Assembly: GCA_012520035.1 (NCBI GenBank)
Contig: JAAYOY010000183.1
Span: 1 to 37,649 of the forward strand
DNA length: 37,649 bases
Origin: Bacillota bacterium
GTDB taxonomy: Bacteria; Bacillota; Dethiobacteria; DTU022; UBA8154
Reading direction: 5' to 3'
Shown here: in pieces, positions 3,202 through 37,593 of the stretch
Numbering within the stretch: position 1 is the first letter of the stretch
Layout of the letters: each line of letters begins with the position of its first letter
Notes under the pieces: model-generated
Seen by the model: only the letters and a program-made list of their open reading frames with translations
The model's database searches: none
Told to the model about the DNA's origin: nothing
Program-made: the position numbers and the translations under genes

Positions 3202-4386
3202 CTAGATATTCATCTTATTTTTCAGGTAACGCTGAACAAGTACCATGTAGTTTTGATAGGCCTGCTCTAATTCTATCATTGTGTCACCGGGGAATTTTTC
3301 CAGGAAAGCCCTGGCTATTTCCCAGGCGGTAACGGCTTCCCCCACCACTGAGGCCGCGGCAATTGCACAAATATCGGACCGTTCCACAGCGGCATTTCTT
3401 TCTTTGCCCGTAGCCAGATCTATGCTGGGCAAAGCCTTTCTCAGGGTCGGAATAGGTTTCATGGCAGCCCTTAAAATGAGGGGTTCGCCGTTGGTTATCC
3501 CCCCCTCAAGCCCCCCGGCATGGTTGGACGACCTCGAGATTTTCTTCTGCTCATCCCATAAAAAAGTATCGTGTATCAACGAACCGCTGCTTTCGGCAGC
3601 GCGAAAACCAAGCCCTATTTCAACGCCTTTAATACCGGGGATACTCATTAAAGCTCCGGCAAGACGCCCATCCAGACGCCTGTCCCAGTGAACATGGCTG
3701 CCCAGGCCGGGAGGGATGCCGTCCACCACGATCTCAAAAACCCCTCCTAAAGTATCCCCCGACTTTATAGCGCGGTCAATCTTCTCCAGCATAAGTTTTT
3801 CCGCTTCAGCATCAGTGCAGTAAAGAAGGGAGCCGGCCGTTTTTTCTTTAATTTCTCTTGCTTTTAAGTTTCGGTTTATTGTAGAAATCGCAATATCACC
3901 TACGGCGATAACATATCCGGCACTTTCAATGTGAAAATGCTTCAGCAATAGAGAGGCTATACTGCCGACAGCCACGCGCATGGCCGTTTCCCTGGCGCTG
4001 GCGCGCTCCAGAACATCGCGCAGATCGCGGTGTAAGTATTTCATCCCGCCGGCCAGATCGGCGTGTCCCGGGCGCGGGCTGCTGATTCTTTTTTCGGATG
4101 TCTTGTCCTGCGGCTTTACTGACATTATCTTCTGCCAGTTTGCCCAATCTTTGTTCTCAATTTCCAGCGTAAGGGGGGCGGCCGTTGTTTTCCCGAAACG
4201 CACACCGGACAGTATTTTCAGGCGATCCTTTTCTATAGCCATACGCCCTCCCCTGCCGTAGCCGCCCTGACGTCTGGAGAGTTGCTGGTTGATGTAATCT
4301 TCTTCGATTTCCAGGCCTGCCGGCAGCCCTTCAATAATACCCACCAGCGCCGGGCCGTGAGATTCACCTGCGGATAAATATCGCAT
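3202..4386 (-). CDS. aroC: Chorismate synthase
   Basis: Makes chorismate from EPSP with reduced FMN, the branch point to Phe, Tyr and Trp. Family signatures are YLSAGESHGP at the N-terminus, RRQGGYGRGGRM, FGKTTAAPLT, SSPRPGHADLAGG, RDLRDVLERASARETAMR and GGLEGGITNGEP. The ATG at 4386 gives the canonical MRYLSAGESHG start (394 residues), but it has no close ribosome-binding site. The ORF can begin at a TTG at 4422, preceded by AAGGAGGG about 24 bases upstream and by a stop codon, so the start is unresolved. EPSP synthase (aroA) is not in the visible part of this operon. Confidence 0.96.
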   Translation of the reverse strand: MRYLSAGESHGPALVGIIEGLPAGLEIEEDYINQQLSRRQGGYGRGGRMAIEKDRLKILSGVRFGKTTAAPLTLEIENKDWANWQKIMSVKPQDKTSEKRISSPRPGHADLAGGMKYLHRDLRDVLERASARETAMRVAVGSIASLLLKHFHIESAGYVIAVGDIAISTINRNLKAREIKEKTAGSLLYCTDAEAEKLMLEKIDRAIKSGDTLGGVFEIVVDGIPPGLGSHVHWDRRLDGRLAGALMSIPGIKGVEIGLGFRAAESSGSLIHDTFLWDEQKKISRSSNHAGGLEGGITNGEPLILRAAMKPIPTLRKALPSIDLATGKERNAAVERSDICAIAAASVVGEAVTAWEIARAFLEKFPGDTMIELEQAYQNYMVLVQRYLKNKMNI

Positions 4387-31442: not shown

Positions 31443-32093
31443 CTAAAGAAATGGACTAACTATAATAGAAACAACTGTTTCATAAAGATTAATGATAAAA
31501 AATCCAACAGGACCCAAAATACTTCCCAACCCGCCAAAAATTAGGAGCAAAATAAGCAACAAAGGCCCATAAGGTTCAATTTGGTAATAAGTTTGCAGAT
31601 TCCGCCCTTTCAGCATTGTAGATAGTATTTTAGAGCCGTCAAGAGGCGGCAACGGTATCATATTAAAAATTGCCAGGAAAACATTATAAATTACCAGATT
31701 AAACAGGATACTGTCCAATATGCTGTACAGGCTGCTTCCATAAATATTATGCGCGGTTATTCTAAATACAATTAAGAAAAACGTAGCCAGGAAACCCAGG
31801 ATCAAATTAATTCCCGGCCCGGCAAAAGAAACCCAGAACAGGCCTTTCCTGCGATCCTTGAAGTTGAAAGGGTTAATGGGAACAGGCCTTGCCCAGCCAA
31901 AACGGACGATAACCAGCATAAGCAGGCCAATAGGATCCAGGTGGGCTAAAGGATTTAAAGTCAGTCTTCCCTGGAGTTTGGCTGTCGGATCACCCCAGTA
32001 GTATGCCATCCTGCCATGGGCATATTCGTGAAAGGTTATTGCAATCAGCAAAGCGGGTATACGTCCCAGTAAATCTGTAGGCAATGAAAACAT
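31443..32093 (-). CDS. Site-2-protease-like M50 membrane metalloprotease
   Basis: Intramembrane zinc protease. The zinc motif HExxH is in TFHEYAHGRMAYYWGDPTAKLQGRLTLNPLAHLDPIG near the N-terminus. The second metal motif is in FNMIPLPPLDGSKIL at about 155-170. Around five hydrophobic helices are present and there is no PDZ domain, so it belongs with the short YwhC-like group rather than RseP. The substrate is unknown. The ATG overlaps the cca stop by one base (TAATG), showing tight coupling. A spore-specific role such as SpoIVFB is not indicated by sequence or context. Confidence 0.9.
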   Translation of the reverse strand: MFSLPTDLLGRIPALLIAITFHEYAHGRMAYYWGDPTAKLQGRLTLNPLAHLDPIGLLMLVIVRFGWARPVPINPFNFKDRRKGLFWVSFAGPGINLILGFLATFFLIVFRITAHNIYGSSLYSILDSILFNLVIYNVFLAIFNMIPLPPLDGSKILSTMLKGRNLQTYYQIEPYGPLLLILLLIFGGLGSILGPVGFFIINLYETVVSIIVSPFL

Positions 32094-33409
32094 TAATTAT
32101 CCCCTTCCCCGGCTTCTTCACATATTTTATTTTTTTTTATAAGAAAGGTGACAAATGCTAATTCCTCTTCTTTCCCCGCAACTTTCCCATCAAGGACAGC
32201 TTCATAGAGGCTTTTTAAGACCCTGTTAAAGGCAGGCCCGGGTTTTAAACCCTTTTCCAACAGATCTTTCCCGGTTATTAACGGCCGCCGGCAAGCCAGT
32301 TCCTGTTTAAAATAAGAGATCTGCTCACAAAGATGCGGATCCCTTTCCAGTACCGTCATTAGCGCAAGTCCTTCTTTCGGCAATTCATGAAGGAGAAAAT
32401 AAAGCTGCGCCGGGCTGACAGACGCTTGCTTAATTTTAGATATAGCTTCAGGAACCTTCTTTAAAATAGCAAACAAAGCAAGGCGTTCCTTCCTTTTCAG
32501 GCGCATGAGATGGCAGAGATAAGCAGTATCATGTTCGGATAAATCGTAAAAAAGGGCTGAAAGATAGAGAATAAAGTAATTACAATTTCCTTCAAGGCCG
32601 CTTTCCGCTGGTTCTGCAATCCTCTTTTCCAATAGAAGCAGCCTTTCTTTGAGTTGACCATTAAATTCCAGGCGAGGGAAAATATCTTTGAACAACTGCA
32701 GTTCATTCAGCCGTATTAAGATCTTTAGAGGAGAAGGTTCTTTGAAAACTAAACGGATTTCGTTATAAAGGCGTTCCTTGCTTACCTTTTCAAGCATCCT
32801 ATTCGCTATGGCTTTGCGCAGCATGAGATACGTATCTTCCTCAATTATAAAATCAAACCTTTGTTCAAAGCGAATAGCCCGGATAATGCGCAGGGGATCA
32901 TCCACAAAGCTCAGATTATACAGGATTCTGATAATTCCTCTTTCCAGATCTTCCCGTCCTCCAAAATAATCATAAAGGCGTCCAAACTTTTCAGGATTCA
33001 GGGCGCAGGCCATGGTATTGATGGTAAAGTCCCTGCGGTAAAGGTCGTTTTTCAAAGATGAGCGTTCAATATCCGGCAGCGCACCGGGGCCGGCATAAAA
33101 TTCTTGCCTTGCGGTTACCAGATCAAAAATAATTCCCCTGGATAAAATCAATTTGGCTGTACCGAATCTCTCAAAGCACTGGAGCCGCCCCGGCAATATT
33201 TTTGCTACATGCTTTGCATACTCTGTAGCAGAGCGATCGACAACTAAATCCAGATCGCGGTTTTCTTTACCCAGGAGAAGATCCCTGACAAAACCTCCCA
33301 CTGCAAAGACCTTAAATGACTCCCTCTGAGCCAAATATCCCAGAAGATAAATTGTCGCATGAAGCTCTTTGGAAAGGGAACTATTGATTAGCGGGGTAAG
33401 GTTGGTCAT
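32093..33409 (-). CDS. cca: tRNA nucleotidyltransferase (CCA/poly(A) polymerase family)
   Basis: Adds or repairs the 3' CCA of tRNA. The class II nucleotidyltransferase head has FAVGGFVRDLLLGKENRDLDLVV (catalytic Asp pair), FGTAKL and RRDFTINTMACALNPEKFGRLYDYFGG. DDPLRIIRAIRFEQRFDFIIEEDT marks the neck. The C-terminal half is weakly conserved and no HD domain is obvious. With 438 residues it could be a CCA-adding or only an A- or CC-adding enzyme; sequence alone does not decide. ATG 33409 has AAAGGG upstream. First gene of a likely cca-M50-trpS unit. Confidence 0.9.
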   Translation of the reverse strand: MTNLTPLINSSLSKELHATIYLLGYLAQRESFKVFAVGGFVRDLLLGKENRDLDLVVDRSATEYAKHVAKILPGRLQCFERFGTAKLILSRGIIFDLVTARQEFYAGPGALPDIERSSLKNDLYRRDFTINTMACALNPEKFGRLYDYFGGREDLERGIIRILYNLSFVDDPLRIIRAIRFEQRFDFIIEEDTYLMLRKAIANRMLEKVSKERLYNEIRLVFKEPSPLKILIRLNELQLFKDIFPRLEFNGQLKERLLLLEKRIAEPAESGLEGNCNYFILYLSALFYDLSEHDTAYLCHLMRLKRKERLALFAILKKVPEAISKIKQASVSPAQLYFLLHELPKEGLALMTVLERDPHLCEQISYFKQELACRRPLITGKDLLEKGLKPGPAFNRVLKSLYEAVLDGKVAGKEEELAFVTFLIKKNKICEEAGEGDN

Positions 33410-33485: not shown

Positions 33486-33514
33486 ATTATACCATATAAT
33501 AACAAAAGAAAAAA
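33486..33514 (-). promoter_or_regulatory. Possible cca promoter
   Basis: A perfect TATAAT (33491-33486, minus strand) in the GGTATAATC context lies about 75 bases before the cca ATG. The -35 region at 17 bases is only T-rich (TTTTTT), so recognition is uncertain. Confidence 0.4.
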
Positions 33515-33581: not shown

Positions 33582-33652
33582 CAATGCAAGGCGTTATCAG
33601 CTCTATTGAAATGCATTAGAGAAGAATGAAAGCAATTACACGATATATTGAT

Positions 33653-33799
33653 AAATTACCAGTTAATTTCTGGGTATTTCCAGTAATATTTTAGCAATTA
33701 CCAGTTATTATTTGGTAACTCCCAGTTAATAATTGGCAATTTCCAGGTAATTATTGGATTGTGCCAGGTAATTTGAACTGTTCTCCGGTAATAAATGCC
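33653..33799. repeat. Seven-unit array with exact 21-bp period after spoVAF
   Basis: The CCAG/CCGG anchors fall at 33659, 33680, 33701, 33722, 33743, 33764 and 33785, all exactly 21 bases apart. Units are diverged variants of AATTNCCAGNTAATNATTGGN and contain small dyads (CCAGTTAATAATTGG, TGG-NAATTN-CCA). The array fills the 147 bases directly beyond the spoVAF stop. Read in the spoVAF frame it gives heptads such as IITWKLP and IINWELP, interrupted by two stops. A weak eighth copy may lie near 33633. Confidence 0.92.
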
Positions 33800-35284
33800 T
33801 TATTTCTCCCCCGGAGGTGAAGTGTCGGTATCACGTGTCCGTAAAAAGGAAGGCCTGAACCCCTTAACCGGTACCGGTTTTCGAAATAAAACATTAAAAA
33901 GAGCTTTGCCGTTGAACGGCAGTAGAGGCCATAAATAGGGAAGGTTAAATGAGCGGGTGGTAGCCAGTCTGAGGAACACAAGCAATAAACCGGCGACAAA
34001 CCCATAGATTTGAAAAAACCCCGTTAATAACAATAACAGAATTTGCACCAGTCTGTTTGCCAAACCCAGCTCCCAGCTGGGGGTCGAAAAAATGCCGATC
34101 GCTACCAGTCCTATATATAGCAATACCTCGGGTACAAAAAAACCTACTGTAACAGCGATATCACCGATTAACAGCGCCCCGACAAGACCCAGGGCGGTGG
34201 CAAGCGGAGACGGAGTATGAATGCTGGCCATTCTCAGTAAATCAAGGCCGATATTTGCTACAATAAATTGCAGAAAAAGGGGGAGGGCAACCTTTTCTTT
34301 GGGACCAATAAATTGTAAAGCCTCCGGCAGCATCTCACTGTAATTTACTAATAAAAGCCAGAGGGGAACCAAAAAAATTGAAATAAAGATACCCAGCAGG
34401 CGAACCCAGCGGATATATACCCCCACAATGGGGTTATGCCTGAATTCCTCCGCATGCTGAATATGATGAAAATATGTAACGGGGGCAATCATCACGGAAG
34501 GGGATGTATCTACGATAATACACACATGCCCCTCCAGTAGATGCACTGCGGCTACATCCGGCCTTTCCGTGTAACGTACCTCGGGAAAAGGATTCCAGAA
34601 ATCACCGGTGATAAATTCTTCAACTGTTTTTTCCGCCATCGGCAAACCATCAACATCTATTTTTAAAAGCCTGCTTCTTATCTCTTCCAGGATGGCAGGA
34701 TTTATGATATCTTCGATATATAACAGCGCAACATCCGATAAAGACCTGCTGCCGATAGTAATAGCCTCGACCCTCAGTTTCGGGTCCCTCAATCTTCTTC
34801 TTATGAGGGCAACGTTAAAGAGCAGCGTTTCTACAAAACCATCTCTCGAGCCGCGGGTAATTTTTTCGATATCGGGCTCATCGGGTTGCCTGGAAGGATA
34901 CTGCCGTATATCCAAAATGATAATTTTTTTTTCGCCATCTATTAAAAATACAAGCGGGCCGCCTAAAACCTCATTGACCGCTTCTTCCAGATTATCAACC
35001 AGGGTGATTTCTCCATAAGGTAACAGTTTTGCTGTTATTTTCTCCAGCGGATTGGGCACAATGTCTTCCTGTTTTGCATCCAGGAGCGTTTGCATGATAT
35101 AGATAATTACCTCTCCGTTGGCAAAACCGTCGAGAAAGATAAAGGCTACCTTTTTGCGGCCAATATTAAACTCCCTTAAAATAACGTCAAAGCTAATGCC
35201 GATTCCTAATTCCCGGCGAAAATAATCGATATTGTCCTCGATTTTAGGATAGATAATCGTTTTATCTGCTGTCTTTTCCGGCAT
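33800..35284 (-). CDS. spoVAF: Stage V sporulation protein AF (GerA-family spore membrane protein)
   Basis: Spore inner-membrane protein of the GerA A-subunit superfamily, linked to the SpoVA channel for dipicolinic acid release. The N-terminal soluble part (~1-280) has FLDGFANGEVI, GGPLVFLIDG, RGSRDGFVETLLFNVALIRRR and PFPEVRYTERPD. Membrane helices follow (LGIFISIFLVPLWLLLVNY, PLATALGLVGALLIGDIAVTVGF, LLYIGLVAIGIFS, LVQILLLLLTGFFQIYGFVAGLLLVFL). The protein is 494 residues, the usual size. AGGAG precedes ATG 35284. It ends at the edge of the 21-bp array and is the last gene of the spoVA unit. Confidence 0.93.
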   Translation of the reverse strand: MPEKTADKTIIYPKIEDNIDYFRRELGIGISFDVILREFNIGRKKVAFIFLDGFANGEVIIYIMQTLLDAKQEDIVPNPLEKITAKLLPYGEITLVDNLEEAVNEVLGGPLVFLIDGEKKIIILDIRQYPSRQPDEPDIEKITRGSRDGFVETLLFNVALIRRRLRDPKLRVEAITIGSRSLSDVALLYIEDIINPAILEEIRSRLLKIDVDGLPMAEKTVEEFITGDFWNPFPEVRYTERPDVAAVHLLEGHVCIIVDTSPSVMIAPVTYFHHIQHAEEFRHNPIVGVYIRWVRLLGIFISIFLVPLWLLLVNYSEMLPEALQFIGPKEKVALPLFLQFIVANIGLDLLRMASIHTPSPLATALGLVGALLIGDIAVTVGFFVPEVLLYIGLVAIGIFSTPSWELGLANRLVQILLLLLTGFFQIYGFVAGLLLVFLRLATTRSFNLPYLWPLLPFNGKALFNVLFRKPVPVKGFRPSFLRTRDTDTSPPGEK

Positions 35285-36725: not shown

Positions 36726-37226
36726 TTAGATTAATGCCGATATCAACCCCACAACAAAAGCGGTCACCACGCCGAAAACGATGATCGAGCCGGCCAGGGC
36801 GAACATCTTGGACCCTGTTCCTGTGACTAACCCTTCTCTTCTAAATTCCATAGCCATGGAAGTTACAGAATTGGCAAACCCTGTTACAGGAACTGCAATG
36901 CCCGCTCCTGCAAGCTGTGCAATATTATCGAAAACGCCTGCGGCAGTGAGCGATGCTGCAATAAAAATAACCGTTGCTACAGTCGGGTTTCCCGCTTCCT
37001 GTTGAGGAACGCCTAAGGAAACATAAATATTTAAAATAAGCTGGCCGAACATACATATCAAACCTCCAAAAATAAAAGCATAGATGATATTTTTTATTAT
37101 TGGAGGTTTGGGTTGTTTTAGCCGCTGCCAGTTGTTAATCCAATTTCTGTCAATTAAGATATCCTCTGTTTCTTTTGCGGTACTAATAGTCCTCACTTCC
37201 CTTGCAAGCCGACTACTGGCGTACAC
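36726..37226 (-). CDS. spoVAC: Stage V sporulation protein AC
   Basis: Membrane subunit of the SpoVA channel; in Bacillus SpoVAC acts as a mechanosensitive channel. Conserved parts are RLKQPKPPIIKNIIYAFIFGGLICMFGQLI and the C-terminal AAGVFDNIAQLAGAGIAVPVTGFANSVTSMAMEFRREGLVTGTGSKMFALAGSIIVFGVVTAFVVG. The start is unresolved: no ATG precedes the conserved region. The GTG at 37226 overlaps dodecin by 14 bases with a weak ribosome-binding site; GTG 37196 sits too close to AAGGGA. First SpoVA gene here; no spoVAA or spoVAB is visible. Confidence 0.93.
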   Translation of the reverse strand: MYASSRLAREVRTISTAKETEDILIDRNWINNWQRLKQPKPPIIKNIIYAFIFGGLICMFGQLILNIYVSLGVPQQEAGNPTVATVIFIAASLTAAGVFDNIAQLAGAGIAVPVTGFANSVTSMAMEFRREGLVTGTGSKMFALAGSIIVFGVVTAFVVGLISALI

Positions 37227-37416
37227 CGAAAGCCAGCTTTACATTGGCTTTGAATTCCACAACATCGCCGTCAGACACATTTGCCGTCAGATTTAATACT
37301 TCGACCCCTGTAATTCCCTCTACAGTATCAGAGGCCCTACTTACCGCATCCCTGACCGCATCCTCCCAGCCCTGAGTTGATTCGCCGATTAATTCAATTA
37401 CCTTTGCAACTCCCAT
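37213..37416 (-). CDS. Dodecin family flavin-binding protein
   Basis: Small protein of the dodecin family, which forms 12-subunit shells that store and protect flavins. The 67-residue sequence MGVAKVIELIGESTQGWEDAVRDAVSRASDTVEGITGVEVLNLTANVSDGDVVEFKANVKLAFGV shows the beta-alpha-beta-beta pattern and the conserved Trp that stacks on flavin. AAAGGAGAAA precedes the ATG. It lies directly ahead of spoVAC and may overlap it, so it is probably co-expressed with the spoVA genes. Confidence 0.9.
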   Translation of the reverse strand: MGVAKVIELIGESTQGWEDAVRDAVSRASDTVEGITGVEVLNLTANVSDGDVVEFKANVKLAFGVRQ

Positions 37417-37537: not shown

Positions 37538-37593
37538 TCTAATGCGATATCTAATGCGATAATCAAATGTGATAAAGATCTTCTAATGCAATA
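37538..37593. repeat. Cluster of 12-bp repeats (TCTAATGCGATA)
   Basis: Two perfect tandem copies (37538-37549, 37550-37561) and two variants, TCAAATGTGATA (37563) and TCTAATGCAATA (37582). They lie upstream of dodecin-spoVA in an AT-rich region. Confidence 0.75.

Follow-up and report, generated by a model that had tools for sequence, protein, structure and literature searches.

A conserved, lineage-specific array of 21-bp repeats behind spoVAF, a putative row of protein-binding sites

A tandem array of 21-bp units follows the sporulation gene spoVAF in the window analysed here, a stretch of 37,649 nucleotides covering contig JAAYOY010000183.1 of a Bacillota bacterium. The array is genuine, conserved, specific to a lineage and previously undescribed. 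On balance, we favour, as reasonably probable when taken as a whole, its interpretation as a non-coding, vertically inherited row of putative protein-binding sites, which would be occupied cooperatively on one face of the DNA and form a local nucleoprotein element.

On the forward strand of the window, CCAG starts at positions 33659, 33680, 33701, 33722, 33743 and 33764 and CCGG at 33785, and every spacing among these seven anchors is exactly 21 bp. The self-identity of the array is 0.60 at lag 21 and 0.58 at lag 42, against 0.42 at the next best lag. None of 5000 dinucleotide-preserving shuffles equalled this periodicity, either at lag 21 or at any lag from 19 to 23, and the periodicity was likewise unmatched by shuffles in three relatives. 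TRF recovered the array with a period of 21 and 5.7 copies, and its period-42 version of the same array reached the top score of the window (102). Anchor positions, lag identity, shuffles and TRF thus confirm that the array is real and bear out the preliminary description of this DNA, which had reported seven anchors exactly 21 bp apart. On the minus strand, which is the sense strand of spoVAF, the array core consists of six contiguous 21-bp units (33651..33776), each carrying CTGGnA: unit 1, TCAAATTACCTGGCACAATCC (33756..33776); unit 2, AATAATTACCTGGAAATTGCC (33735..33755); unit 3, AATTATTAACTGGGAGTTACC (33714..33734); unit 4, AAATAATAACTGGTAATTGCT (33693..33713); unit 5, AAAATATTACTGGAAATACCC (33672..33692); and unit 6, AGAAATTAACTGGTAATTTAT (33651..33671). 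A degenerate unit 0, CATTTATTACCGGAGAACAGT (33777..33797, minus strand), in which CCGG replaces CTGG, adjoins the spoVAF stop codon. The array had been said to abut this stop exactly, which was loosely put: the stop codon lies at 33800-33802, one degraded unit follows, and the first full CTGGnA unit comes about 24 bp on.

We read the 3' end of spoVAF in 15 genomes of the family, in which the array-bearing genomes are MAG species. An array was present behind the gene in five: the window genome (G000) and G001, both of genus g1, G006 of g6, and G007 and G013 of g7, with 6, 5, 4, 4 and 3 CTGGnA units, respectively. Across these five genomes, 15 of the 17 intervals between units measure 21 bp; the exceptions are one of 23 bp in G001 and one of 31 bp in G007, the latter arising from a 10-bp duplication and lying near three helical turns. 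Among the genomes read, no array was found behind spoVAF in four genomes of g2, three of g4 and three of g8, where the gap after the gene is short (3-124 bp). Absence or drift of the spacing in sister strains had been named as the sign of a transient slippage product; neither was observed in the near genera g1, g6 and g7, the array being missing from g2, g4 and g8. The tree built from spoVAF proteins gives no firm branching order for g1+g6, g7 and g2, and the AU test allows the array bearers to form a single clade (p = 0.365); on the best tree, parsimony requires two changes. Vertical inheritance of an array specific to this lineage is part of the explanation that we favour. In one array-less g8 genome, G014, a search of the 700 bp behind spoVAF did not find cca. 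Inspection by eye also showed terminator-like hairpins that overlap or directly follow the spoVAF stop in two array-less genomes of g8 (GGGGAAC-AAATA-GTTCCCC in G008; GAGCAG...CTGCTT followed by T's in G014).

The genes on the minus strand of the window follow the order dodecin, SpoVAC/SpoVAEB-family, SpoVAD, a further SpoVAC/SpoVAEB-family gene, SpoVAF, the array, cca and an M50 protease (assigned by Pfam), beyond which lie open reading frames that, judged from their translations alone, read as trpS and scpA. spoVAF itself (33800..35284, minus strand; GerA family, PF03323, E = 6.8e-156) ends at the array, and cca, encoding the tRNA nucleotidyltransferase (32093..33409, minus strand; PF01743), adjoins downstream in g1 and g7, unlike in g6. 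The cca promoter TTATGGTATAAT, with its -10 element TATAAT preceded by TGG (33486..33491, minus strand), is situated downstream of the array, and this -10 element also precedes cca in relatives, whether they bear an array or not. In the g6 genome the array lies behind spoVAF, yet the next gene encodes a DUF2229/HGD-D protein and not cca, which ties the array to the end of spoVAF rather than to cca. DUF2229/HGD-D-type genes stand between spoVAF and cca on contig 163 of that genome, and a gene resembling the g6 DUF2229/HGD-D gene follows spoVAF in g2 and the outgroups; the disappearance of this gene from g1, g4, g7 and g8 apparently placed cca beside spoVAF. At the other end of the cluster, the dodecin gene (37216-37416, minus strand; PF07311, E = 1.4e-24) is directly upstream of the spoVAC-like gene that heads the spoVA operon, and is itself preceded by a small repeat of 12-13 bp, TCTAATGCGATAA (37538-37575).

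An alignment of 21 units from the five genomes, anchored on CTGG and leaving out the degenerate edge units, yielded on the spoVAF-sense strand the consensus ...(C)CTGGnAATTnCCa plus an A/T spacer. Positions C9, T10, G11, G12 and A14 are invariant in all 21 units, against an identity of about 50% over the remaining positions, an invariance that is somewhat inflated by the anchoring and by the omission of edge units. The nCC half is kept in most units (C19 in 17 of 21 and C20 in 16 of 21), and the spacer columns 0-6 have a GC content of 4% (96% A/T) against 32% elsewhere in the gap. With the dyad centred where it scores best, TGG pairs with CCA and the free positions 13 and 18 mirror each other; a dyad as good was obtained in 112 of 5000 column shuffles (p about 0.02), and the symmetry is therefore moderately supported. 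Mean unit identity is 63% within genomes and 62% between them (883 of 5000 label permutations), indicating that the units have not been homogenised, that the array is old and not the result of fresh slippage, and that concerted turnover is no explanation of the consensus. Moreover, neutral simulations in which units diverged evenly until they matched the observed level never produced five invariant columns. The pattern of the aligned units is that of an old array under constraint. Of the earlier suggestions, which are thereby supported in part, that of a protein-binding array with same-face spacing withstands the comparison with relatives that had been put forward as its check: the array and its 21-bp spacing are kept in three genera, and the constrained positions are partly dyadic.

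These features have to be weighed against readings in which the DNA is not a row of binding sites. A neutral minisatellite, produced by replication slippage without selection, would account for copy numbers ranging from three to seven, for degenerate edges, for the 10-bp duplication in G007 and for the several genera devoid of an array. Nevertheless, we regard it as improbable, given that CTGGnA stays constant in all 21 units from three genera amid nearly random neighbouring positions, that G and C are retained in an otherwise A/T-only repeat, and that homogenisation within genomes is lacking. Another proposal was that the array is a decayed or read-through tail of spoVAF coding for TWxLPxx heptapeptide repeats. 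In g6 and g7 the Trp frame runs through the array without a stop, and in the window it is in phase with spoVAF, as the preliminary description had it; across the five genomes, however, its phase relative to spoVAF is 0, 1, 2, 2 and 0, and because the phase varies among relatives, the agreement in the window is a coincidence. In addition, units of g1 contain in-frame TAA/TAG codons, a stop in G006 precedes the first Trp by four codons, none of the codons between being a start, and the third position C9 is invariant while first positions 7 and 13 are free, the reverse of codon constraint. With an open frame not kept in phase across relatives, a coding heptapeptide repeat is rejected and the array is non-coding; the probability that we would still grant to such a tail, decayed or read through, is close to nil. 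A further reading places the action in RNA, the array, transcribed at the 3' end of the spoVA mRNA, folding or binding an RNA-binding protein and serving as terminator, stabiliser or insulator. In such a role the array might substitute for terminator-like hairpins of the kind that array-less g8 relatives show at the spoVAF end, and it would fit that the sense strand folds more strongly than its shuffles in two genomes, the window (z = -3.2) and G007 (z = -3.7). We nonetheless hold it to be unlikely: no consistent structure appears in G001 (z = +0.3), G006 (z = -1.8) or G013 (z = -1.3), both strands fold about equally, as expected of any dyad array, and positions 13 and 18 show no covariation, so that a stem is not maintained by compensation. 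Rfam returned no match beyond chance, only chance matches to eukaryotic miRNAs far below the cut-offs, and with neither a conserved fold nor an Rfam match the array does not qualify as a structured RNA family.

The array occupies a single locus in each of the five carrier genomes, which rules out a dispersed intergenic repeat family. No second array was detected in these genomes by a two-unit pattern with two mismatches, by the profile R1 or by the exact 13-mer CTGGNAATTNCCA. The two-unit pattern hit 59 places in the genome of the window, and those that were read (C20 and C120) are both in genes. The 13-mer occurs at 26 places in the five genomes, and its sites outside the array all fall within open frames, so that no regulon or autoregulated regulator gene is recognisable. 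R1 revealed no further array in the order (71 genomes) or the class (98 genomes), its sole extra match in the class, G074, being inside a radical-SAM-like gene and not an array. BLAST of the array against phage and plasmid sequences gave no match, and viral contigs contained no exact two-unit pattern. Four-fold CTGGnA was present at at least 120 loci of the viral contigs; the best weight-matrix score among the matches listed was 38 bits, compared with 47 bits for the plasmid array described below and a training mean of 67, and none of the viral matches listed scores like the array of the window and its relatives. A literature search on spoVAF repeats and 21-bp palindromic arrays found nothing relevant.

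Over 399 sampled genomes of the phylum, R1 identified one other array, on contig 3 of G272, which is identical to the Caldicellulosiruptor bescii plasmid pBAS2 (NC_012037.1). It spans positions 188-275 on the minus strand and comprises four CTGGnA units at a pitch of exactly 21 bp (CCAG at 192, 213, 234 and 255), with E = 4.1e-7 for one genome and its 47 bits reached over three units; the CTGG half is kept in these units and the CC half mostly not. pBAS2 encodes RepL and a weakly scoring tyrosine recombinase. pYA01-1, a sister plasmid with 79% identity to pBAS2, has no counterpart of the ~140-bp stretch that holds the array, and no array was found in other genomes of the Caldicellulosiruptor family. 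For pBAS2, 21-bp direct repeats near rep have been mentioned (PMC3643907), which we take to be a different pair, at 3265-3306. Many GTTAGC/GCTAACG repeats in inverted arrangement are also found on the plasmid, at ~380-470 and 3370-3650, around a non-coding part.

That the only other R1 array in the phylum sample sits on a plasmid, at the very same pitch, raises the question of whether the chromosomal array is a plasmid-type element, an iteron or centromere array that entered an ancestor's chromosome and persists there as a fossil or in active form. We judge this quite improbable: pYA01-1 retains RepL and the integrase without an array, which means that those proteins do not require it, the pBAS2 units mostly lack the CC half, and the chromosomal array has no rep, par or integrase gene beside it. 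Its units are indeed tandem direct repeats within the 18-22 bp of iterons, but a linked rep gene and origin were not found, the neighbours being the spoVA genes, cca, the M50 protease and the ORF read as trpS. The same pitch also recalls tandem sites for a response regulator of LytTR type (AgrA/VirR-like). A LytTR site consists of direct repeats of 9 bp separated by 12-bp spacers, hence a pitch of 21 bp (PMC6193735), and direct-repeat operators of the family include those of AgrA, the VirR boxes and those of HdrR/BrsR (PMC6193735, PMC2838878). This 9+12 bp geometry fits our array, in which 15 of 17 intervals have the pitch given by two ~9-bp direct repeats and a spacer of 11-13 bp, and the repeat ACCAGTTAT listed in Table 3 of PMC6193735 is identical to ACCAGTTAT on the forward strand of the window. 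The LytTR reading fails all the same, because PF04397 was not found in G000, G001, G006, G007 or G013 while the same search scores in G018 and five control genomes, and because the consensus core is not kept, g6 and g7 having CCAGGG/CCAGGA in place of CCAGTT (GTT to GGG). Nor was a suitably oriented adjacent promoter found; a promoter scan gave only a 9/12 match, inside the array on the minus strand, and fewer matches than in shuffles. With no LytTR domain in the five array genomes and a changed core in g6 and g7, a LytTR operator is mostly refuted and, in our estimate, highly improbable.

According to the binding-site reading that we prefer, each 21-bp unit would contain one site, CTGGnAATTnCC(a) on the spoVAF-sense strand, in which CTGGnA is the strong half and nCC a weaker half mirroring it, with the A/T spacer preceding the next site. 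The pitch corresponds to two helical turns and would set all sites on one face of the DNA, so that dimers of a DNA-binding protein could occupy neighbouring sites and build one cooperative nucleoprotein patch of about 60-130 bp. Binding of a protein to the array is likely, judging from the constraint and geometry of its sequence, and the protein is probably a dimer that binds cooperatively. The patch may act locally as a roadblock or boundary between the sporulation operon and the next gene, and not as a classical promoter operator; we infer this role from position, since the array keeps its place at the 3' end of the spoVA operon irrespective of the gene downstream and lacks its own promoter. 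As a counterpoint to a functional array, genera g2, g4 and g8 live without one. A more specific scenario, which we put forward as rather unlikely, is that a sporulation-linked protein binds this lineage-specific, single-locus element at the end of the spoVA operon and there insulates the forespore operon, or anchors or condenses this part of the chromosome in the spore. If true, a conserved binding array that closes a sporulation operon once per genome, away from a promoter, would indicate a novel DNA-binding protein with one site of action, either keeping a spore operon apart from a housekeeping gene or organising the spore chromosome.

Multi-site repressor operators form a general class in which binding is cooperative and on the same face. 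The array is like them in that dyad sites are repeated at an integral number of turns, but it is not at a promoter, and the genome holds no further exact site in intergenic DNA. Plasmid iterons and centromere arrays are direct repeats of about 20-22 bp; with these the array shares several two-turn direct repeats in A/T-rich DNA, and a similar array does occur on pBAS2, whereas ours is chromosomal and limited to one locus with no rep or par beside it, and the pBAS2 array is missing from a sister plasmid that keeps rep. LytTR operators resemble it in their direct repeats, 21-bp pitch and use of one DNA face, and in the window repeat that equals a listed LytTR repeat. However, they are pairs of sites just upstream of a -35 element, whereas the array has 3-7 units at the 3' end of an operon. 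Its core reads CCAGG(G) in sister genera, and a LytTR protein was not found in its carrier genomes. Tandem binding sites in helical phase are a known kind of element, and it is the place of this array and its single-locus habit that are unusual.
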